Positions 1-56,093 of a stretch of DNA of 56,093 nucleotides are shown one piece after another; the first letter of the stretch is position 1; each line of letters begins with the position of its first letter. The notes beneath the pieces are model-generated. The model ran no database searches. It saw only the letters and a list, made by a program, of their open reading frames with translations, and was not told the origin of the DNA. The position numbers were made by a program, and so were the translations under genes. Source of the stretch: a virus; the IMG/VR virus record IMGVR_UViG_3300021962_000005, positions 1 through 56,093 of that record; one strand, 5' to 3'.

Positions 1-127
1 CCAACTGCCCGATCGTCATGTCGACCTTGTCGTAGTCGAGCACAGCCAAGTGGCGGACGGCGACGTTACCCTTGCGGCCCTTGGACGGGTCAGTCAGCGG
101 CCCCCCAATGAACGAGGCGCGTTTGGC
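1..127. repeat. Terminal direct repeat (circular contig overlap), left copy
   Basis: This stretch is identical to 55967-56093. It lies inside a single open reading frame that continues in frame across the junction, so the two ends join into one circle of 55,966 bp. An exact 127-base overlap is the usual signature of assembly with k=127, so I infer an assembly overlap on a circular or circularly permuted genome rather than a biological terminal repeat. Confidence 0.95.
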
Positions 128-262
128 TGACTCCTCCTTGCTGTCGAACTCCACCGACTTGGCGAAGCCCTTCACAAGCTGTTCCCAGCTCAGGTGCATG
201 ACTTCCGCAGAGTTGAAGTCCCTGCAGTAGGTGACGGTGAATTTTGCTTTTTGTTCGGTCAT
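1..262 (-). CDS. Primase-helicase (AEP primase + SF3 helicase), N-terminal part
   Basis: This is the first part of a gene that continues at the right end of the window (53742-56093); joined across the circular junction it encodes 828 residues. The start is the ATG read from 262 leftward, preceded by an AGGGGG ribosome binding site about 6 bases upstream. A TTG further in (position 49, equal to 56015) would be chosen only if the window were treated as linear. The N-terminal 70 residues plus the LDYD motif (D76, D78 of the joined protein) look like the beginning of an archaeo-eukaryotic primase domain. The gene follows the small HTH gene at 292-498 by 29 bases and is probably cotranscribed with it. 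Confidence 0.85.
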   Translation of the reverse strand, partial: MTEQKAKFTVTYCRDFNSAEVMHLSWEQLVKGFAKSVEFDSKEESAKRASFIGGPLTDPSKGRKGNVAVRHLAVLDYDKVDMTIGQL

Positions 263-3435: not shown

Positions 3436-3906
3436 ATGGCCAAAAGAAAACACAGGCACTTGCCGCAGCCAATACCAGAGATGACTGAAAAGGATGTCGA
3501 ACGGTTCTGGGCGAAGGTAGATGTGCGTGAACATGATGAGTGTTGGGACTGGAAATCAACCGCCGTAGCCGCCGGATACGGTCGCATAAAAATATCCCAG
3601 AAGCTCTATTCTGCTCACCGCGTAGCGTTCTTCTTGGCCAATCCAGACGTAGACATCACCGGCAAGAAAGACGTTGTGATGCACTATTGCGACAACCGTC
3701 GCTGTTGTAATCCGGCCCATCTGCGTTTAGGTACTCTGCGAGACAATTTCATGGACATGCTCCAGAAGGGTCGCGGCGGAGCAATAATTGTCAAACTTAA
3801 AAAGAAAGAGGCTACTCCTCATGCTTATCTTGGACTGCGAAGTTTATCGGAATTACTTTTTGCTTATGTTCAAAAAATTAGAAGTTGGAAAATACGCAAC
3901 GATTGA
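3436..3906 (+). CDS. HNH endonuclease (homing-type, overlapping the polymerase start)
   Basis: A 156-residue HNH nuclease. Residues 30-115 carry the phage HNH pattern: CWDWKS, GYGRI, AHRVAF, MHYCDNRRCCNPAHL and the closing LGTLRDN. The cysteines and histidines of the MHYCDNRRCCNPAH block supply the zinc knuckle and metal site. TTTTGGAGG gives a strong ribosome binding site 5 bases before the ATG. The last 86 bases overlap the polymerase gene in another frame, so the tail after KGRGG (residue 115 on) is probably adventitious. Free-standing HNH genes next to polymerase genes are usually homing endonucleases. Nicking or packaging-linked roles are alternatives. Confidence 0.85.
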   Translation: MAKRKHRHLPQPIPEMTEKDVERFWAKVDVREHDECWDWKSTAVAAGYGRIKISQKLYSAHRVAFFLANPDVDITGKKDVVMHYCDNRRCCNPAHLRLGTLRDNFMDMLQKGRGGAIIVKLKKKEATPHAYLGLRSLSELLFAYVQKIRSWKIRND

Positions 3907-5599
3907 AATGTTCGAGGGCCAATCAGTCGATCCTCGCAGAATAAATCGCCTACTGGCGTCAGACACGACAATCAGCTTCAACGGAAATTCCTACGATCTC
4001 TATATCATTGCCGCCGCCCTCGCCGGGTGGAAATGCTCGCAGATAAAAGAGCTGTCGGATGACTTGATCAAGTCGAAGTTACCGGCTTGGAAGATCGCAC
4101 AGCAGTATGATCTGCAGTTGCCGCAGTGGGACCACGTCGATCTCTTCGAGGTAGCGCCCGGAAAGGCCAGCCTGAAGATTTACGGGGGAAGGCTGAACGC
4201 TCCGCGCATGCAGGATCTCCCCAGCGAGCCTGACGCCATGATTACCGCCGATCAGGCGGCAGAGATGCGGAAATACTGCGCGAACGATCTCGACACTACC
4301 GAGCGCCTCTACCGGGCTATGGAGAGCCAGATACGCCTGCGGGAGGAGATGGGTCAGCAGTATGGCGGCATCGACCTGCGCAGCAAGAGCGACGCCCAGA
4401 TCGCCGAGGCGGTTATCAAGCATGAGCTGACAGAGCTGACCGGCAAGTCCTACAAGCCGCGCAAGGCTGAGATTGGGTCTCTGCTGAAGTACGAAGACCC
4501 CGGCTTCGTTGAGTTCCAGTCGCCGCACCTGCAGGAAGTGTTCCGCATGGTTCTGAATAGCGACTTCCCCGTCGGACTGAACGGCTCTGTGCAGCTCCCA
4601 AAAGAGCTGCAGAACAAGAAAATCGTGATCGGTGACACCGAGTACAAGATGGGCATTGGCGGCCTGCACAGTTGCGAGAAGTCCCGCACCGTCGAGGCAA
4701 CATCCGAGCAGATCCTTGCCGACTTCGACGTCGCCAGCTACTACCCTAATATCATCCTGAAGCAGCGGCTGTCGCCGAAGTCCATGGGGGCAGACTTCCT
4801 GACAGTCTACAAGGACATTGTCACGCGGCGGCTGAAGGCGAAGGCGGCGGGCGACAAGGTGACGGCAGACACCCTGAAGATCGTCGTGAACGGGTCGTTT
4901 GGGAAGCTGGGCAGCATGTACTCCAGTCTGTACGCGCCGGAGCTGATGATCCAGACCACGGTCACCGGCCAGCTCTGTCTGCTAATGCTGATCGAGATGC
5001 TGGAGGATGCCGGAGCGAAGGTTGTCAGCGCCAACACCGACGGCGTCGTCGTCCTGTTTGACAAGGCACTCGAAGACACGATCATGGGGCTGACGTTTGA
5101 GTGGTCGATGCAGACCAGCTTTGAGCTTGAGCGGTCAGACTACCGCTCGCTGCACAGCCGGGACGTGAATAACTACATTGCGGTTAAGTTGGACGGCAAG
5201 ACCAAGCGGAAGGGTGTCTACGCCGAGCCGCTGCTGAACAAGAACGCCGACTTCCAGATTGTCAGTGACGCCGTCGCCAATTATCTGAGCAAAGGGACGC
5301 CTCTACGCAACACGATAGTGCCGAGCAACGACGTGTGGCGGTTTGTACATATACGGACAGTGACGGGCGGCGCAGTGTGGCGGGGGCAGTTCCTCGGCAA
5401 GGCTGTGCGGTTTTACTACTCGGCAGAGGCGATGCAGGGGGAGGCCATTCACTACGCGAGGAACTCCAACCGCGTGCCTCGGTCCGAGGGCGCAAAACCC
5501 ATGATGGAGCTGCCGGAGAAGATGCCGTGCGACATGGACTACGCCAGATACCTTATATTGGCGCAGGAGGCGCTGAAAGACGTGGGGGTTGAAGTATGA
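3821..5599 (+). CDS. DNA polymerase, family B, with 3'-5' exonuclease
   Basis: A 592-residue replicative polymerase. The N-terminal proofreading exonuclease shows Exo I DCE (D5, E7), Exo II NGNSYD (N54-D59) and Exo III YCAND (Y152-D156). The polymerase core has motif A FDVASYYP (D303), motif B K353-IVVNGSFG and motif C NTDG (D407). Motif C normally reads DTDS, so the first aspartate is replaced by asparagine, while the essential second one is kept. At under 600 residues it is short for a family B enzyme (phage examples are commonly 700-900), close to protein-primed polymerases, but I cannot point to clear TPR insertions. The ATG at 3821 (AGAGG upstream) is chosen over an upstream TTG at 3788 because the exonuclease begins right after it. 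Confidence 0.9.
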   Translation: MLILDCEVYRNYFLLMFKKLEVGKYATIEMFEGQSVDPRRINRLLASDTTISFNGNSYDLYIIAAALAGWKCSQIKELSDDLIKSKLPAWKIAQQYDLQLPQWDHVDLFEVAPGKASLKIYGGRLNAPRMQDLPSEPDAMITADQAAEMRKYCANDLDTTERLYRAMESQIRLREEMGQQYGGIDLRSKSDAQIAEAVIKHELTELTGKSYKPRKAEIGSLLKYEDPGFVEFQSPHLQEVFRMVLNSDFPVGLNGSVQLPKELQNKKIVIGDTEYKMGIGGLHSCEKSRTVEATSEQILADFDVASYYPNIILKQRLSPKSMGADFLTVYKDIVTRRLKAKAAGDKVTADTLKIVVNGSFGKLGSMYSSLYAPELMIQTTVTGQLCLLMLIEMLEDAGAKVVSANTDGVVVLFDKALEDTIMGLTFEWSMQTSFELERSDYRSLHSRDVNNYIAVKLDGKTKRKGVYAEPLLNKNADFQIVSDAVANYLSKGTPLRNTIVPSNDVWRFVHIRTVTGGAVWRGQFLGKAVRFYYSAEAMQGEAIHYARNSNRVPRSEGAKPMMELPEKMPCDMDYARYLILAQEALKDVGVEV

Positions 5600-6192: not shown

Positions 6193-6459
6193 ATGCTAGA
6201 GAAGCTAATAGAGCGAGCACTTGTACGTCGAGTGAAAGACCTTGGAGGGTTATGCGAAAAATTTGTCTCCCCCGGACGCCGGAGCGTGCCAGACCGTATT
6301 GTCACGCTCCCGGGTGGCAGGATCATATTTGTAGAATGTAAAGCCCCCGGAAAAAAGCCTACGCCGCTGCAGGAGCGCGACCACGAAAAGCGACGGTCGC
6401 TTGGCTGCACGGTGTTAGTAATCTCAAAACTGGAAGATGTAAGCCAAATCAAATGCTAG
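6193..6459 (+). CDS. VRR-NUC domain nuclease
   Basis: An 88-residue single-domain VRR-NUC (PD-(D/E)XK superfamily) protein. The signature is complete: SVPDRIV (D34), FVECKAPG (E48, K50) and PLQERDH (Q60), as in stand-alone phage VRR-NUC proteins, which cut branched DNA such as Holliday junctions. It overlaps the following SNF2 helicase by 7 bases. In related cassettes these two genes are adjacent, which suggests a helicase-nuclease pair acting on recombination intermediates. Confidence 0.9.
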   Translation: MLEKLIERALVRRVKDLGGLCEKFVSPGRRSVPDRIVTLPGGRIIFVECKAPGKKPTPLQERDHEKRRSLGCTVLVISKLEDVSQIKC

Positions 6460-7796
6460 ACCGTAACAATCTACATGCTTACCAAAACCGCGCCGTGTCC
6501 TTCATCAAAGACCGCAAGCGGTGCGGCCTCTTCCTCGACATGGGTCTGGGCAAGACGACGTCCACACTGACGGCGGTCAGCGACCTGATCGACGACTTCC
6601 AGATACGCAAGACGCTCGTTATCGCGCCCCTTCGCGTCGCCAACAGCGTTTGGAAGCAGGAGGTCTACAAGTGGGCGCACCTCGATCACATGCGCGTCTC
6701 GGTCTGCACAGGATCGGCAAAGCAGCGTCTGGAGGGGCTGATGACCTCGGCAGACGTCTACGTCATCAATCGCGAGAATGTTGACTGGCTCGTTAAGCAC
6801 TACGGCCCCAAGTGGCCGTTCGACATGGTGATCATTGACGAGAGCAGCAGCTTCAAGAACCCATCGACGAAGCGGTTCAGGTCACTGCGGCGCATTCTTC
6901 CGATGACGGAATACATGGTCCTGCTGACCGGCACGCCGTCACCCAACAGCCTGCTGGACCTGTGGCCCCAGATGTTCCTGATCGACTTCGGAGAGGCCCT
7001 TGGCCGCACTGTAACCGGCTACAAGCAGCGGTTCTTCGAGAGCGACTACATGGGCTACAAGTGGAACATCAGGGAAGGTGCTGCCGACAAAATCCACAGT
7101 CTGATCCAGCCCCGCGTCCTGCACATGAGCGCGGATGATTATCTCGACGTACCGCCGCGCATAGACTTGGTTGAAAATGTCGAGCTGCCCTCCGAGGCGC
7201 TGGCGATATACAAGGACTTCGAGAAGACGCTACTGGCGGAGCTGGAGGACGGCGAAGAGGTCGAGGCGGCGACAGCGGCAGTCCTCGCCAACAAGCTCCT
7301 GCAGTTCGCCAATGGGGCAATCTACACCGACGACAAGCATAACTGGTCAGAGACGCACAAGGCCAAACTGGACGCCTTGGAGGAAATCGTCGAGGACAAT
7401 CCAAACGAGACGCTGCTGGTTGCATACAACTACAAGTCGGATCTTGCCCGGCTGCAGGCCCGTTTCCCCGACGCAGTTGTCCTCGACAAAAAACAAACAA
7501 CCATTGACAGGTGGAACGCCGGTGAGATTAAAATGCTTCTCGCCCACCCGGCGTCTGCTGGGCACGGGCTCAACCTGCAGAATGGCGGCAGCCTGATTGT
7601 CTGGTTCGGCCTGACATGGTCCTTGGAGTATTACCAGCAATTCAATGCGCGACTGCACCGGCAGGGTCAAGAAAAGCCTGTCCGCATTCTGCATGTGATC
7701 GGTAGGGGAACTATCGACGAGAGAGTTATGGGCGTCCTTGCGCATAAGGACATGACGCAACGCTCATTGTTGGCGGCACTGAAGCCGTCTAAATAG
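6453..7796 (+). CDS. SNF2/DEAD-like superfamily 2 helicase
   Basis: A 447-residue SF2 helicase of the SNF2 type found in phage replication modules. Motif I is MGLGKTTS (G31-T36). Motif II is IIDESS (D129, E130). Motif III is LLTGTPSPN (about 157-165). The second RecA-like domain ends with GLNLQNGG and the motif VI region NARLHRQGQ (arginines near 410-415). Both lobes are compact, with no long insert, and at 447 residues the protein matches phage relatives. It probably remodels or branch-migrates DNA at forks or recombination junctions together with the preceding VRR-NUC. Translation is coupled to that gene by a 7-base overlap. Confidence 0.9.
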   Translation: MLDRNNLHAYQNRAVSFIKDRKRCGLFLDMGLGKTTSTLTAVSDLIDDFQIRKTLVIAPLRVANSVWKQEVYKWAHLDHMRVSVCTGSAKQRLEGLMTSADVYVINRENVDWLVKHYGPKWPFDMVIIDESSSFKNPSTKRFRSLRRILPMTEYMVLLTGTPSPNSLLDLWPQMFLIDFGEALGRTVTGYKQRFFESDYMGYKWNIREGAADKIHSLIQPRVLHMSADDYLDVPPRIDLVENVELPSEALAIYKDFEKTLLAELEDGEEVEAATAAVLANKLLQFANGAIYTDDKHNWSETHKAKLDALEEIVEDNPNETLLVAYNYKSDLARLQARFPDAVVLDKKQTTIDRWNAGEIKMLLAHPASAGHGLNLQNGGSLIVWFGLTWSLEYYQQFNARLHRQGQEKPVRILHVIGRGTIDERVMGVLAHKDMTQRSLLAALKPSK

Positions 7797-7807
7797 AAGA
7801 GGGAAAA

Positions 7808-8146
7808 ATGAAAAACGTAAACGAGATATTGAACGAAAGAGAAAAAGTCAGCGGCAATTACGGCGACGTTGCTCGCATGATCCAAGACACCGTGCGCCTG
7901 TGGGCTACGGGGCCAAATTGGAGCAAAGGCAAGTTGACTGATCCGCAAGTGACCAGTCTTGAAATGATTGCGTTGAAAGTCACCCGCATATTGCAGGGCG
8001 ACAACAATCACGTTGACAGTTGGCGCGACATCGCGGGATACGCGGAACTTGCCGCAATCGAAATCGAAGAGGCCGAAAGGGCTTTGGAGAAGAGCTTGCA
8101 AATTATTGATGGGGCATTTAGCAAAATACCAAAGAAGGAGAAGTAA
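7808..8146 (+). CDS. DUF6378 domain protein
   Basis: A 112-residue protein matching the phage family DUF6378, recognised by ILNEREK near the N-terminus, a GPNW segment, LEMIALKVTRILQGD and the strongly conserved DSWRDIAGYAELA (about 78-90). The family is common next to replication or nucleotide-metabolism genes in phages. Its all-helical, acidic character recalls MazG-like folds, but no nucleotide hydrolase motif is complete here, so no activity is claimed. The ribosome binding site is AGAGGGAAAA, 5-6 bases from the ATG. Confidence 0.8.
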   Translation: MKNVNEILNEREKVSGNYGDVARMIQDTVRLWATGPNWSKGKLTDPQVTSLEMIALKVTRILQGDNNHVDSWRDIAGYAELAAIEIEEAERALEKSLQIIDGAFSKIPKKEK

Positions 8147-9338: not shown

Positions 9339-9448
9339 TCGAACGCGCACAATACTCGTCAGAAATGGTTCTGGCGGGTGGACATTGGGCCAACGTTAAG
9401 TTCCTTCCAAGGTCCTTGTCTCTGTTTGATGACTCCGAAACTGACTTG

Positions 9449-28649: not shown

Positions 28650-30002
<1,353 letters not shown>

Positions 30003-47672: not shown

Positions 47673-47932
47673 GACCAGCGGCCTCCTGAATAGAGCAGAT
47701 CAAGTCCGTGCATCAAGCACTCGTGCTTGCGTATCTCAGCACGGGATATGTTTTCCTTTCGGATCGGATCCCTGTGCGCAATGTAAATATGGATGAGAGC
47801 CGTCTTCACGTCCAGCTCTAACTCATCGGCGACCTTTTTCAGCGTGCTAGGCCCTTGATATTTGCGCATTAACGTGTCGCGCTGGTCACTCGTTATCGTC
47901 GGTATCTTGAGGTAGTGCAGCATATGTTCCAT
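47669..47932 (-). CDS. Small HTH-like protein in the packaging operon
   Basis: An 87-residue protein with a probable helix-turn-helix: GPSTLKKVADELELDVKTALIHIY (about 27-50), a pattern found in sigma-like or small regulatory DNA-binding proteins. ATG 47932 or 47923 could start it; the latter has AGGATGG at a better distance. It overlaps TerS by 38-47 bases and the following gene by 4. A packaging-site binder or a late regulator would both suit the position; neither is proven. Confidence 0.6.
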   Translation of the reverse strand: MEHMLHYLKIPTITSDQRDTLMRKYQGPSTLKKVADELELDVKTALIHIYIAHRDPIRKENISRAEIRKHECLMHGLDLLYSGGRWS

Positions 47933-48416
47933 CCTGCTGCTGCGTCATCAGCAGTACTCTCTTTAGTGCGTCACGGTCTTCGACCGCCAATTGATCGACG
48001 TCAATCGTGACCGGCTTCAGCTCAATCGGCCCGCCGCCCGGCCCGCTGACTTCATGGCGAGACACGTCGCCATAAATTCGCGGCGCGATTTTCATCACGC
48101 GCCACTGATAATGGTTCAACTTAACCCGAGTTGAGTTAACATTGTCCTCGGTGCAGGCATCTGCGAGCCTTTTAAGCTCGTGCATTTCATGATCCGCCAG
48201 CGCCTCGCGTGCGCGTGCGCATTGAAAATCAAATTCCGGATGCGCCAATCGCCAACGATAAATGCTTGAATACGAAGGCATATCAGCATCACTGCAGACA
48301 TCATTCAGGTCTCTGCCAGTTATCACGCGCTCGCAGAACTCAGCCGCAACGTCCGGCGAATACTTTGTCGGACGCCCAGCAGGCTTGTGAGGTACTCCGG
48401 GTTTAACCCGTGGCAT
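47886..48416 (-). CDS. terS: Terminase small subunit-like protein (Sf6 gp1-type)
   Basis: A 176-residue protein. The N-terminal DNA-binding helix-turn-helix reads GRPTKYSPDVAAEFCERVITGR and continues with DMPSYSSIYRWRLAHPEFDFQCARAREALADHEMHEL, the typical Sf6 small-terminase pattern. The central helices contain NHYQWRVMKIAPRIYGD, and the C-terminal 40 residues are acidic. It recognises phage DNA and feeds it to TerL. It overlaps the GapR-like gene by 14 bases and precedes TerL by two small genes. Confidence 0.85.
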   Translation of the reverse strand: MPRVKPGVPHKPAGRPTKYSPDVAAEFCERVITGRDLNDVCSDADMPSYSSIYRWRLAHPEFDFQCARAREALADHEMHELKRLADACTEDNVNSTRVKLNHYQWRVMKIAPRIYGDVSRHEVSGPGGGPIELKPVTIDVDQLAVEDRDALKRVLLMTQQQDGTYAALPQDTDDNE

Positions 48417-50070: not shown

Positions 50071-50099
50071 ATCGCCGCAAATCGCGGCGATTTTTTTTT
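50071..50099 (+). terminator. Rho-independent terminator before the iteron array
   Basis: ATCGCCGC (50071-50078) and GCGGCGAT (50084-50091) form a perfect 8-bp stem around a 5-base loop, followed directly by eight Ts. It closes the transcript of the 49519-50064 genes and marks the left edge of the repeat region. Confidence 0.88.
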
Positions 50100-50272
50100 G
50101 GCGGTTTATTGGCGGTTTATTGGCGGTTTATTGGCGGTTTATTGGCGGTTTAATTTGTTAATAAATACAAAAGGTTGCGGCGGTTTATTGGCGGTTTATT
50201 GGCGGTTTATTGGCGGTTTATTGGCGGTTTATTGGCGGTTTATTGGCGGTTTATTGGCGGTTTAATTTGTTA
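50100..50272. repeat. 11-bp iteron arrays (two blocks)
   Basis: Block A (50100-50154) has four perfect copies of GGCGGTTTATT plus a truncated fifth; block B (50179-50264) has seven perfect copies plus a truncated eighth. Both blocks end in the same TTTAATTTGTTAATAAATACAA stretch (only one base differs), then AGGTTGC, so a longer unit has been duplicated as well. Eleven bp is about one helical turn, so all copies face the same side of the DNA. No open frame of interest crosses the array. It is a candidate replication origin or protein-loading site; CRISPR is excluded because there are no spacers. Confidence 0.8.
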
Positions 50273-51948: not shown

Positions 51949-52479
51949 ATGAACACCATCATCAAAGCGACCCAAGAGGAAGTTTTCTTTGAAGTAATAT
52001 TGGCCGCAGACACGCTTGCAAAAGCCTATCTGAGTTATATCCCCGTGCCAAAACCTAAAAAGTCAAGAAAGACCAAAAAACCCGAGGCGTTAGAAGAACC
52101 CGAGGCGTTAGAAGAACCCGAGGCGTTAGAAGAGGCCGGCGAAGGCTCTAAGGTTAAAAAGAAAAAGAAAAAGAAGAAAAAATCCGAAGAATCAGAAAAA
52201 CAGAACGAAGAGGTCAGGACATACGAAAAAAGAAAAACAATGCTCTTGGACGCTATCAAATCCAACAAAGAGGATTTCAGTGACGCCAAGGACATTGTAT
52301 CAAATCTGTCAGCTACCATGGACCAGATAACCTACGAAATGACGACCGACGTAACAAAATTTGTGGACGTCAATAGGAAGGTCAAAGAGCTTAACTCTAT
52401 CCTACACATCGGCAGGTCATACCCAAACGACGCAATTAAGCGCACCAAAAAAATTATAGGAATGTGGAGGGGATACTGA
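51949..52479 (+). CDS. Charged repeat protein (EALEEP and poly-lysine)
   Basis: A 176-residue protein. Residues 1-30 form an amphipathic helix. Next comes a lysine/proline-rich stretch, three EALEEP repeats encoded by 18-bp DNA repeats (52081-52134), and a poly-lysine run (KKKKKKKKKSEESEK). The C-terminal 100 residues form a coiled coil (KTMLLDAIKSNKEDF, ATMDQITYEMTTDVTKFVD). The base composition differs from its neighbours (more A), so it may be a recent acquisition. Its alternating acidic and basic tracts suggest binding to nucleic acid or histone-like host proteins, but the function is unknown. Confidence 0.68.
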   Translation: MNTIIKATQEEVFFEVILAADTLAKAYLSYIPVPKPKKSRKTKKPEALEEPEALEEPEALEEAGEGSKVKKKKKKKKKSEESEKQNEEVRTYEKRKTMLLDAIKSNKEDFSDAKDIVSNLSATMDQITYEMTTDVTKFVDVNRKVKELNSILHIGRSYPNDAIKRTKKIIGMWRGY

Positions 52480-52688
52480 TGGACAAGCCGAGCGCAATTC
52501 AATGGTCTGACAAAAAGCCTGACGGCACCCGTGAGCTGACCTATCTAAGCAACGTAGTCGGCTGGGCCTGCAAGGCCAAGCACTACCGCGAAATGGGCGA
52601 CTGGATCGCCCTGAGCGTCCACGGCAACGTCCGCCACACCTACTCCCTGAAGGCCGCCAAAGTGGCCCTGATGGAGATGTACTCCTGA
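52479..52688 (+). CDS. Small early protein
   Basis: A 69-residue protein. ATG 52479 overlaps the preceding stop (TGATG), with GGAGGGG as the leader; the frame extends upstream but is not needed. It has a tryptophan- and lysine-rich pattern (SAIQWSDKKPDGTRELTYL, VVGWACKAKHYREMGDWIALSVHG). It is coupled on its other side to the HTH gene (TGATG at 52686). No family is recognised. Confidence 0.65.
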   Translation: MDKPSAIQWSDKKPDGTRELTYLSNVVGWACKAKHYREMGDWIALSVHGNVRHTYSLKAAKVALMEMYS

Positions 52689-52903
52689 TGACCAAAGAGC
52701 AATTCAAAGCGTACATGGACGAATTGAAGATGTCGTCCTCAGACATTGCCTTACTGACAGGCAACACACCCCGCGCCGTGCAGCTATGGCTGAGTGGCAC
52801 TAACCCGGTCCCGCAATCAGCCGCCCTGCTGCTGCTGGCCTACAGGGACGGCAGGATAGACGACGACTGGATCGTCGAAATGGTCGCCACCTTCAGGAAC
52901 TAA
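52688..52903 (+). CDS. Small Cro/CI-like HTH protein
   Basis: A 71-residue DNA-binding protein with a Cro-like helix-turn-helix: MSSSDIALLTGNTPRAVQLWLSG (about 15-37), followed by a short helix (AALLLLAYRDGR). It is the last gene of the fourth early transcript and ends just before a strong terminator. A small regulator in this position is the obvious candidate to bind the palindromic operator of the early cassettes, but that pairing has not been shown. The MerR-like protein at 292-498 is the alternative. Confidence 0.75.
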   Translation: MTKEQFKAYMDELKMSSSDIALLTGNTPRAVQLWLSGTNPVPQSAALLLLAYRDGRIDDDWIVEMVATFRN

Positions 52904-53087: not shown

Positions 53088-53475
53088 ACCCTCTCCATTT
53101 ATGAGCATAACGCAAAACTTTACGCATACGGTTAAACCACTGTTTGCAAATCGTAAACGGCAATTTTGCAGGTCGATATGCTCAATATGCGCGAAATTTT
53201 CTATTCTATTTATATATAGAAATGAAATTTCCCCCTTCCCCCTAAAAAATTTGTTTCTCGCGTGTATAGAGATTTACAATATTTTGCGCATTTGCGCATA
53301 TTTCATATGAAATATTCCTTAAAAAATAATAATTTCAAATAGTTACGAAATATGCTCAAAGTATATGCGCAAAGTTTCTTTTGCTCATATTTGGGCTCTT
53401 TGCGCATATTGCCTCCCCCGCTTCCAGACGTCAGGCATTGGTGATACCATCCGCGCGACAACCGAAGAGGCCGCC
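53088..53475. promoter_or_regulatory. AT-rich intergenic control region with eight 11-bp motif copies
   Basis: No gene is supported in this 388-bp gap. It contains eight copies of TTTGCGCATAT or close variants in both orientations, at 53176, 53185, 53283, 53291, 53350, 53363, 53380 and 53399, and a perfect 14-bp palindrome ATTTCATATGAAAT (53300-53313). Flanking A/T runs (53210-53345) would melt easily. Divergent genes lie on either side. A replication origin or multi-site operator is the best interpretation. Confidence 0.7.
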
Positions 53476-53760
53476 ATGCCACCCCGCCGAGTACCTATCG
53501 TAGAGAAGAAACTTGGACGTGACAACGTTCACGGCTGGGCCTACGCCAAGCCGCCCAAGATCGAAATTGATGAAAGATTGCGTGGGCGTTTCCAGCAGGA
53601 AGTGCTCCTCCACGAGCTGCTGCACGTCGCACTTCCCCAGCTCGAAGAAGAGTGCGTCACCAAGACAGCGGAGTTCCTGAGCCACCATACATGGCGGTTT
53701 GGGCTGCGGAGGATCCAGCCCCCCGCGCTCCGCCAGAAGCGTCAGAAGGGGACGTCGTGA
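53476..53760 (+). CDS. Small zincin-like metallopeptidase domain protein
   Basis: A 94-residue protein. The ATG at 53476 is chosen because the upstream part of the frame lies in the AT-rich control region. It contains the zincin motif HELLH (H46, E47, H50) in LLHELLHVALPQLEEE, where a downstream glutamate could be the third ligand; the N-terminal half is a beta strand plus helix. Small phage HExxH proteins of this type occur near replication or lysis genes and may be inactive structural variants or proteases. It overlaps the primase-helicase by 19 bases on the opposite strand. Confidence 0.75.
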   Translation: MPPRRVPIVEKKLGRDNVHGWAYAKPPKIEIDERLRGRFQQEVLLHELLHVALPQLEEECVTKTAEFLSHHTWRFGLRRIQPPALRQKRQKGTS

Positions 53761-56093
53761 AACTCGTCCTTGCCTGCGTGGAAGTCACGCACAGCCTGCA
53801 CAGCCTCGTCTGATGTCATCTTGCCGGCCCGGTACCAGACGTAGTGGCAAGCAGCCTTCGCGCCAGCCTCTGTAATCATCGCCCGCCGCTTGTCTATCGG
53901 CTGATAGCCCATATCCCCGAGGACGTGCCCGAGCGCCCGAGATCTTAGCGCGTCGCCACCGTCCAACACGATCAGACGATTGAAGTACGTCACGTCGATT
54001 AGGTCCGGCCCCACAATCTCGCAGGCATGTTGGTCGAGCGCCACTTCGACCATATCCCTGTCGTCGCTGACGTTCAGGTCACGCATGCGCATGAGGCCCA
54101 TCGTCATCGGAGCGCGGCCTCGCGGTGAAAAGTCCCCGGACACCTCCCAGTCCTCCAGCATCCGCGCCAGAGCGTCTGGGCGCTTTTCCAAAGTGTCGAA
54201 CAGCTCCGCGAAGTACCGCTCCGTCCCCTTCTCGCCGCCGTGGGCCTCCCACAGCTCCTCCTTGCGCGTGAAGGCCGTCGAGATCACGCAGTAGCGCCGG
54301 TCGTTGTCCGACACGGGGATGGCGTCGGCGTGGTTCGTCATCATCATGTACGAGGTGAAGTTCGGGATATGCTTCTCGTCCTTGCCCTTGTGGATAACAG
54401 TGATTGCATCGTTGCTGATGAGCGGCTTCATTTTGTCAAGTATTGCGTACTTGTTCGTCCCAGCGATGCGAATCTCCTCGACGTTGATCAGGACAGAGCC
54501 CTCGGCCCATCCGGTGAACTCACTATTGATCGCCGTAGTCGAGACCACCTTGGCGGCGGATCCCAGCAGATACTGCATAACTGTAAAGAAATACGTCTTC
54601 CCGTTCCCCTCGATGCCGTGCATCAGCAGCGCCCACTGCACGCGCTTGCCGGGGTTCTGGTAGACGTAGGCCATGAAGTCCATGACGATGCGCCGCTCGC
54701 GCTCGTCGGGCACTGTGCGCCGCAGATGGCCCTGAAACTTATCCACAGCCCGCCGCGCCTCGTCGTCGCCCTCCAGCGTCGCGCAGGGCTCCACGCCGTC
54801 GTCGACGTAAGTGTTGAGCCGGTCTAGTCCGTCCTCGGTTTGGAAGATCGTCCCGCCCCCGGGCCAGTACATCTTGGAGGCGACGGTCGGCAGGTTGCAG
54901 TACTTCGTGACGTAGCTGATCGCGTCCGTCTCGGCGGCGACGCACTCCGGCATGCGGTCGTAGGTCGTCCTGAACGACTGCGCGACGACGGAGTGCCGGA
55001 CGGAGACCCTATCGAAGGTCGCGTCCTTTTGATCATAGACCCAGTCCTGCGCCCACGCCGGAACGTCTTGGGTAATAGGCAACGCCAGTTGATTACCCTT
55101 CTTACCTTTTCCCCTGACCAAGTCCTTCTTGACCTCTGAGAGCGTCATGCCGACGCCCTTGCCGTAATGCTCGTGCAGGATCTTGCAGACCTCCGAACGC
55201 ATGGCTGCAGGCAGGGCGACGTCGCTCAGTCCGAGCACGGCTTCGCGTACTGCTGCGTACTCGGCCTGTGAGGTGACCGTGCGGGCTCGCTCGCGCAGGT
55301 CTTCGACGACGGGGCTGTCTGGGCGCAGGCCGAGGGCCTTGTCGCGGCCGCCGGCCCGCTTGATGACCGTCGCAAGGGTGACGGGGCGCTTGCTGCCGCC
55401 GAAGGAGCGCCACTTGACCGGCATGTGGCGGGGGTCATGCTTGCCGGACTTCGACGACCATGCGAGCCAACGCTGGTAGCCCTCATCGGCCCCCCGGTGC
55501 TGGTGCCAGAGCGCCATGCCGACCGTCAGCCACTCGTCGTAGTCCAGCGGCTCGGCCTCGTAATTGTCCAGCAACGTGTCAATGTCGGCCTCTTCGATGT
55601 CGAGGGGCTGCTCGGCGAGGAGCTGGTCAATGTCGTCGAAGTCGTCGTCCTGCAGATCGTTGAACTGTTCGACCGTGGCCAAGTCGTCGGGCACCGTCCA
55701 CCAATCGTTGCCAATGGCCATAAAGAACGGCTCCGCGCCGGGCTGGTGCGACGGCATGAACATGAGCTGGTTCATGACGTAGGAGCACTTGTCGGGCGTA
55801 CCCAGCCGCAGCTCCGCCGCCAGCCTATCCACGACCGCCGGGTACTCGTCGGCCAGCACGGGGCGCGAGAGGGGCACAACCACCCGCAGGCGGGGCTCCT
55901 CGGGCGTGTGGCGGTAGGTGGAGTAAATGGCCGCGTAGAACAGCGGCCCGGCAATATCAAGGATCCCCAACTGCCCGATCGTCATGTCGACCTTGTCGTA
56001 GTCGAGCACAGCCAAGTGGCGGACGGCGACGTTACCCTTGCGGCCCTTGGACGGGTCAGTCAGCGGCCCCCCAATGAACGAGGCGCGTTTGGC
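53742..56093 (-). CDS. Primase-helicase (AEP primase + SF3 helicase), main part
   Basis: Continuation of the gene starting at 262 on the other side of the circular junction (828 residues in all). Seen in order: an AEP-like primase region with the LDYD acidic pair near residue 76 and a YSTYRHTPEEPR stretch; a PriCT-like region at about 215-295 (DYDEW, WLAWS, KWRSF); and an SF3/DUF5906-type helicase with Walker A GIEGNGKT near residues 538-545 and Walker B VLINVEE near 580. Such proteins synthesise primers and unwind DNA at phage and plasmid replication forks. The gene is convergent with, and overlaps by 19 bases, the metallopeptidase-like gene ending at 53760. An internal perfect DnaA box lies at 54739-54747. 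Confidence 0.88.
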   Translation of the reverse strand, partial: AKRASFIGGPLTDPSKGRKGNVAVRHLAVLDYDKVDMTIGQLGILDIAGPLFYAAIYSTYRHTPEEPRLRVVVPLSRPVLADEYPAVVDRLAAELRLGTPDKCSYVMNQLMFMPSHQPGAEPFFMAIGNDWWTVPDDLATVEQFNDLQDDDFDDIDQLLAEQPLDIEEADIDTLLDNYEAEPLDYDEWLTVGMALWHQHRGADEGYQRWLAWSSKSGKHDPRHMPVKWRSFGGSKRPVTLATVIKRAGGRDKALGLRPDSPVVEDLRERARTVTSQAEYAAVREAVLGLSDVALPAAMRSEVCKILHEHYGKGVGMTLSEVKKDLVRGKGKKGNQLALPITQDVPAWAQDWVYDQKDATFDRVSVRHSVVAQSFRTTYDRMPECVAAETDAISYVTKYCNLPTVASKMYWPGGGTIFQTEDGLDRLNTYVDDGVEPCATLEGDDEARRAVDKFQGHLRRTVPDERERRIVMDFMAYVYQNPGKRVQWALLMHGIEGNGKTYFFTVMQYLLGSAAKVVSTTAINSEFTGWAEGSVLINVEEIRIAGTNKYAILDKMKPLISNDAITVIHKGKDEKHIPNFTSYMMMTNHADAIPVSDNDRRYCVISTAFTRKEELWEAHGGEKGTERYFAELFDTLEKRPDALARMLEDWEVSGDFSPRGRAPMTMGLMRMRDLNVSDDRDMVEVALDQHACEIVGPDLIDVTYFNRLIVLDGGDALRSRALGHVLGDMGYQPIDKRRAMITEAGAKAACHYVWYRAGKMTSDEAVQAVRDFHAGKDEFHDVPF
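54739..54747 (+). promoter_or_regulatory. Perfect DnaA box inside the primase gene
   Basis: The plus strand reads TTATCCACA, an exact DnaA box, within the primase-helicase coding sequence. One 9-mer could arise by chance. It is listed because the other perfect copy (281-289) adjoins the same gene. Confidence 0.4.
55967..56093. repeat. Terminal direct repeat (circular contig overlap), right copy
   Basis: Exact copy of bases 1-127. Read on the minus strand it carries the primase-helicase frame uninterrupted into the left end of the window. It should be counted once when the genome is treated as a circle. Confidence 0.95.

Follow-up and report, generated by a model that had tools for sequence, protein, structure and literature searches.

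What is an array of short repeats doing in the AT-rich gap close to the primase-helicase gene of a phage? The window analyzed here, the 56,093 nucleotides of the viral record IMGVR_UViG_3300021962_000005, contains such an array, and the initial annotation of this DNA proposed that it could be the true origin of replication or a multi-site operator. Only a minority of lytic tailed phages have, to our knowledge, an origin that has been identified. Our analysis indicates that the candidate region, 53100-53409, is very probably a phage replication origin of the iteron type, served by the phage's own primase-helicase.

We have found all of the eight copies of the 11-mer TTTGCGCATAT that had been claimed, in both orientations and within 240 bp. 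They extend over 234 bp (53176-53409), four on each strand, three of them exact, four with one mismatch and one with two (Table 1). The initial annotation had named shuffling as the way to see if so many copies would appear by chance, and the excess was far above that level. Over 2,000 dinucleotide shuffles of 53089-53475 the exact sites (3 observed) had a mean of 0.0025 and a maximum of 1, those with 0-1 mismatch (7 observed) a mean of 0.05 and a maximum of 2, and those with 0-2 mismatches (10 observed, one of which overlaps another on the opposite strand) a mean of 0.53 and a maximum of 5. In the whole record all the sites with 0-1 mismatch are confined to the array, and the reversed pattern, used as a control, gave no sites with 0-1 mismatch anywhere in the record. 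Read on the primase strand, and calling R the copies opposite to this strand and L those on it, the repeats form four boxes of two copies each: two R copies 19 bp apart in box I, two L copies 13 bp apart in box II, two R copies 8 bp apart in box III and two L copies 9 bp apart in box IV. Two weaker R copies come after them.

Table 1. Coordinates of the repeat array and of the genes and elements associated with it in the window.
Feature	Position	Strand	Remarks
Primase-helicase gene, C-terminal part; proposed initiator	53742..56093	-	PriCT_2, DUF5906, phrog_1156 primase
Primase-helicase gene, N-terminal part across the circular junction	1..262	-	ATG at 262
C-terminal winged-helix domain, proposed iteron reader	53742..54098	-	AlphaFold2 pLDDT 85, pTM 0.78
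94-aa small protein gene with HELLH motif	53476..53760	+	Only in this phage and L013/L033
Box I iteron TTTGCGCATAT (R)	53399..53409	+	Exact; kept in L013
Box I iteron TTTGCTCATAT	53380..53390	+	1 mismatch; consensus base in L013
Box II iteron TTTGCGCATAT (L), first of 13-bp pair	53363..53373	-	Exact; 12-14 bp pair family-wide
Box II iteron TTTGAGCATAT, second of pair	53350..53360	-	1 mismatch
AT-rich element beside box II, family consensus TAAnnCtTTntTTTtntTat	53316..53349	-	Alignment of 35 loci with different iterons
Box III iteron TTTGCGCATAT	53291..53301	+	Exact
Box III iteron TTTGCGCATTT, 8 bp from partner	53283..53293	+	1 mismatch
AT-rich DNA separating boxes III and IV; candidate unwinding element	53196..53282		Second least stable 60-mer, from 53196
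Box IV iteron TTCGCGCATAT	53185..53195	-	1 mismatch; TTTGCGCATAT in L013
Box IV iteron ATTGAGCATAT, 9 bp from partner	53176..53186	-	2 mismatches; conserved in L013
Outer weak iteron TTTACGCATAC	53119..53129	+	Counterpart in L013 is TTTGCGCATAG
Outer weak iteron TATGAGCATAA	53100..53110	+	Counterpart in L013 is TATGCGCATAA
71-aa gene, weakly HTH-regulator-like; rival motif reader	52688..52903	+	phrog_14076, E 4e-4

The gap that holds the array has 30-40% GC and lies between two divergent small genes, as had been described. It is not directly at the end of the primase gene, however: the HELLH gene at its right, which runs into the primase-helicase 3' end, sits between, so that in this phage the array is found ~330 bp from the primase gene. 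The two ends of the record overlap exactly by 127 bp (1-127 is the same as 55967-56093), indicating a circular or circularly permuted record with a unit of 55,966 bp. The primase-helicase gene crosses this junction, from the ATG at 262 on the minus strand to the stop at 53742, and codes for 828 aa; for this reason the ORF lists of the linear record shorten it to 757 aa. Beyond the start of the gene, across the junction, come an exonuclease (1269-2396), a DNA polymerase (3788-5599, phrog_1252) and a helicase (6453-7796), which places the array at the edge of the replication module. Since terminase, virion, tail and DNA polymerase genes were all found in the record, this phage is not a PICI. The analysis of GC skew proposed in the initial annotation gave a cumulative minimum at 55194, less than 2 kb from the array (the maximum was at 9389), but skew tracks gene direction and the switch of gene strand, so this lends the origin only weak support and is not decisive.

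The A/T runs had been considered easily melted. By nearest-neighbour energies no 60-mer in the 56 kb is less stable than two located inside the array: the least stable of all starts at 53298, between boxes II and III, and the second at 53196, between boxes III and IV. Boxes I-II and III-IV flank AT-rich DNA on either side. The T-rich element that follows box II is common to loci with quite different iterons, and in this phage it is likely the start of the melting region. A perfect 14-bp palindrome, ATTTCATATGAAAT, is present at 53300-53313 as the initial annotation had indicated, and by reading extends to 18 bp (53298-53315). It is absent from L013 in the alignment with this closest relative and is therefore probably incidental; we have rejected it as a functional element.

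The primase of L013/L033 is 93% identical to that of our phage over the part available. When compared with the window, L013 retains the eight sites at nearly identical spacing together with the weak copies at 53119 and 53100 on the plus strand, so that both the number of motifs and the gaps among them, the conservation that had been suggested as a check, are kept. At several positions where a site of the window departs from the consensus, L013 has the consensus base (GAGCA to GCGCA). A pattern scan of a viral contig collection for two stretches of the array matched only the contig of this known relative, and megablast of the region against named phages gave no match.

To look at a wider range we gathered ~80 loci with related primase-helicases by an alignment-based search. 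In most of them an AT-rich stretch flanked by repeats is found just 3' of the primase stop, and the sequence of the repeat is phage-specific. Relatives with primases 28-55% identical have in this place the iterons GCGCCCC, GCACCCC, CTGGTCCCC, CTGTTCCCC, CTGAGCACC, TTGCGACC, CGGACCT and TTGGAACC, with the order of orientations and the spacings of the window. The origin-like region is directly 3' of the initiator gene in most relatives, the intervening 94-aa gene being the case of this phage. The shared layout consists of one or two R copies, two (sometimes three) L copies 12-14 bp apart, the AT element, one or two R copies ~45-80 bp on and 7-9 bp apart, and finally two or three L copies ~150-190 bp on, often 7-9 bp apart, with ~100 bp of AT-rich DNA separating the second R group from the last L group. 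When aligned by eye, the iterons have in common the loose scaffold NYTGNNCNYN (TTTGCGCATA, ATTGCGCCCC, ATTGCACCCC, ACTGGTCCCC, ACTGTTCCCC, ACTGAGCACC, ACTGGGCACC, TTTGCGCACC, ATTGCGACCC, ACCGATACCC and others), in a hand-chosen list in which not every iteron fits every position.

The array was also found in cultured phages, Burkholderia AH2 (ATTCGGACCT, 14 copies) and Curvibacter PCA1 (CTTGGAACCT), and the seven copies of ATTGCGTAGG in Serratia JS26 probably follow the family layout as well. No such array was seen at that place in the cultured phages SAP012, AhaSv and R22L, which have distant primases, and this speaks against the origin reading. The records of JS26, AhaSv, SAP012 and AH2 are classed as Casjensviridae. 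When the motif was chosen de novo for each stretch, the layout was recovered in 17 of 38 downstream regions, against 2 of 2,824 control windows (from the same loci, both strands) and none of 380 shuffles; the 38 loci are related, not independent, and both the window and its near twin are among them. Of the 21 failures, many had copies of box III or IV beyond the limit of two mismatches. In 21 of 28 loci no other part of the fetched DNA was as rich in repeats as the downstream stretch, and the exceptions include tandem arrays located elsewhere.

Some of these loci have peculiarities of their own. L035 carries at 7537-8050, 1.3-1.8 kb downstream of the primase gene, long tandem arrays of 7-8 bp units (GGGCCTCT, ~29 copies, and GGCGCTA, ~17). 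In L057 (6226-6530) the box III repeats, GATATCGGTTATCAG, are unlike the box II repeats of the same phage, CGCGCCCC, hinting that one iteron set was replaced or that this may be an origin with two specificities. Its relatives L064 and L066 have CGATACCC in box II.

The comparison of relatives bears directly on the alternative of the initial annotation, a multi-site operator through which a phage regulator, for instance the 71-aa HTH-like protein, would control the two divergent small genes. The gap is indeed a divergent intergenic region with an HTH-like gene nearby, and contains four weak sigma-70-like sites where 0.8 are expected. Nevertheless, the layout is kept in many loci that have other neighbours and no HTH71 homologue in the fetched flank, and it remains tied to the primase 3' end. 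The HELLH gene had no homologue in relatives other than L013/L033, those of the 71-aa gene appear only in relatives with at least 47% primase identity, and the genes adjoining the array differ between relatives. Besides, an operator would not usually have sites on both strands that surround AT-rich DNA and extend across >230 bp, and the least stable DNA lies within the array. Since regulators and neighbouring genes change and the layout does not, we consider an operator improbable as the main role; the array may have a secondary autoregulatory one. The HTH71 protein was rejected as general reader of the motif because it is missing from most relatives. By the same reasoning the true origin that had been proposed is favoured: over more than 35 related loci neither the layout nor its position downstream of the primase-helicase gene varies, but iterons, neighbouring genes and nearby HTH genes do.

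Packaging, partition and recombination sites of phages can also carry repeat arrays, and one of these, located beside the primase gene by chance, is a further alternative. The terminase small-subunit gene is ~5 kb away (47886-48416), in all the relatives the link is with the primase-helicase gene, and the AT-rich centre fits melting, so that we regard a site of this kind as very unlikely indeed.

Which protein would read the iterons of the putative origin? The primase-helicase has PriCT_2 and DUF5906 (an SF3-type helicase), and its PHROGs match is to phage primases. The best PDB match of the helicase region was the C-terminal region of the NrS-1 polymerase (E 1e-18 by fold and 2.5e-22 by profile), which was also the only match when the PDB was searched by profile with the primase-helicase. 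The match to the P4-family primase model TIGR01613 (primase_Cterm) was weak, with an E of 1.6e-6 that is far below the curated cut-off. The C-terminal 118 residues are predicted by AlphaFold2 as a winged helix. VIA-align matched this domain to winged-helix proteins with Z of 4-6 (best 5.9), which may only reflect the common fold; Foldseek gave no confident single match (best E 0.16), and SaPI Rep was absent among the structural matches listed for the domain.

We have also compared the distances between iterons with those between proteins. For the C-terminal domain the Mantel r was 0.45, and 0.20 (p 0.018) in the partial test with the other domains removed; the tests favoured this domain over the helicase and PriCT. 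For the first 110 residues of the aligned part, at the N-terminus, the result was as good (partial 0.25, p 0.009), and both partial tests were borderline when only a subset of closer loci was used. The mutual information of individual residues with the iterons had no concentration in any domain. Covariation supports a link of the iterons with the primase-helicase, a correlation part of which could come from shared ancestry. As the N-terminal part does as well in these tests as the C-terminal domain, the assignment of the reading domain by this means was rejected.

The N-terminal signal is compatible with another use of the repeats, as template sites read single-stranded by the primase domain. 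The NrS-1 primase-polymerase, the best match of our helicase region in both fold and sequence, needs an 8-nt template sequence, 5'-TTTGGTTA-3'. Its genome has only two such sites (PMC7102993), and grouped, opposed copies with fixed spacing around AT-rich DNA better fit cooperative binding to duplex DNA. In SaPI Rep and SCCmec Cch2, moreover, it is the C-terminal domain that reads the iterons located directly downstream of the helicase gene (PMC7581432). Template sites are thus hardly probable, and even so the array would remain an origin, used in another way.

For the preferred reading, an iteron origin, we infer that replication initiates at the array, that the primase-helicase is the reader of the iterons and that its C-terminal domain does the reading. 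The protein (N-terminal primase, PriCT_2, DUF5906/SF3 helicase and C-terminal winged helix) would bind the 11-bp iterons as double-stranded DNA, in two groups of oppositely oriented copies with the least stable DNA of the genome between them. Helicase rings assembled on these groups would melt the AT-rich DNA at the spacer between boxes II and III, at that between III and IV, or at both. Their assembly would also load the helicase, synthesis would be started by the fused primase, and the phage polymerase (3788-5599) would continue it.

Other repeats were observed in the window. At 50094-50264 there is a second and stronger array, whose presence speaks against the origin reading of the first, close to a DUF6011/phrog_4046 reading frame, with an 11-bp unit, GGCGGTTTATT, in two head-to-tail blocks that each end in TTAATTTGTTAATAAATACAAMAGGTTGCGGCG. 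None was seen at the matching place in L013, and an operator, a packaging site or a second initiator site are candidate roles. Inside a 176-aa ORF (51949-52479) the 18-bp unit AACCCGAGGCGTTAGAAG occurs in three perfect copies, with an AAAAAG run after them (52079-52133). The tandem repeats of 18, 36 and 72 bp at 29192-29523 are coding, collagen-like G-x-y on the minus strand by their appearance, and the product of this gene is probably a virion or tail protein.

The origin described here can be recognised by eye from its layout, which transfers to dozens of contigs and to the cultured AH2, Curvibacter PCA1 and probably Serratia JS26, and for this reason the proposal is testable at once. The many natural pairs of iteron and initiator on one scaffold would be well suited to the study of DNA choice by winged-helix initiators. 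As a tentative idea, for which we see a real but less than even chance, Casjensviridae and their uncultured relatives may share one fixed PICI-like layout in which every lineage exchanges its iteron 'password' and its initiator jointly, and a phage can thus start no DNA other than its own. If so, we would be dealing with a phage replication-incompatibility system, possibly the source of satellite origins or a counterpart to them. No earlier description of such phage origins and no paper on a Casjensviridae origin were found in the open-access literature, which is an incomplete body, and in a word search of the AH2 genome paper neither repeats nor an origin were mentioned.

There are several known systems with similar features. 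Like in our case, the pRN1 replicon has a required origin region downstream of the gene of its primase-polymerase/helicase, ORF904, although a stem-loop is required there and the authors found no iterons (PMC4234260). The SCCmec Cch2 protein, a helicase of the D5/primase_Cterm type, uses its C-terminal domain to bind repeats that come directly after its own gene (PMC7581432), but its primase is separate and the AAGTG repeats are only three. The NrS-1 primase-polymerase resembles our protein in the helicase region and differs in having two 8-nt primase sites in its genome and no described iteron origin. The alpha protein of P4 is primase, helicase and origin binder in one, and the P4-family primase-helicases, to which the weak TIGR01613 match leads, are comparable in being multifunctional; our phage differs in a primase part of the AEP type with PriCT_2 and in a candidate origin that is located next to the gene's 3' end.

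The closest parallel is the pri-rep-ori organisation of PICIs (SaPI1, SaPIbov1, SaPI5, EcCICFT073). In these satellites plasmid tests have placed the origin in the segment that follows rep, where AT-rich DNA lies between two iteron sets (PMC6092414). Here as there, the origin, a candidate one in our phage, is 3' of the initiator gene (immediately so in the satellites), the iterons flank an AT-rich region and have an element-specific sequence, and the protein proposed or known as initiator is a helicase that in many cases also contains a primase (PMC6092414, PMC7581432). The candidate origin would work in kind like that of the satellites; in the comparison of initiator sequences the sub-threshold hit to the P4-family primase_Cterm model was the only match of this kind. 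The differences are that we deal with full-size tailed phages (~56-60 kb), with their own polymerase and virion genes, that the boxes, in a set order and at fixed spacing, are at least four and a T-rich element is maintained across iteron classes, and that the proposed initiator is a DUF5906/PriCT_2 helicase-primase. What appears to be new, judging from the open-access literature, is the presence of such an organisation in full-size tailed phages, which share a fixed layout of four boxes and a common T-rich element over many different iteron sequences.
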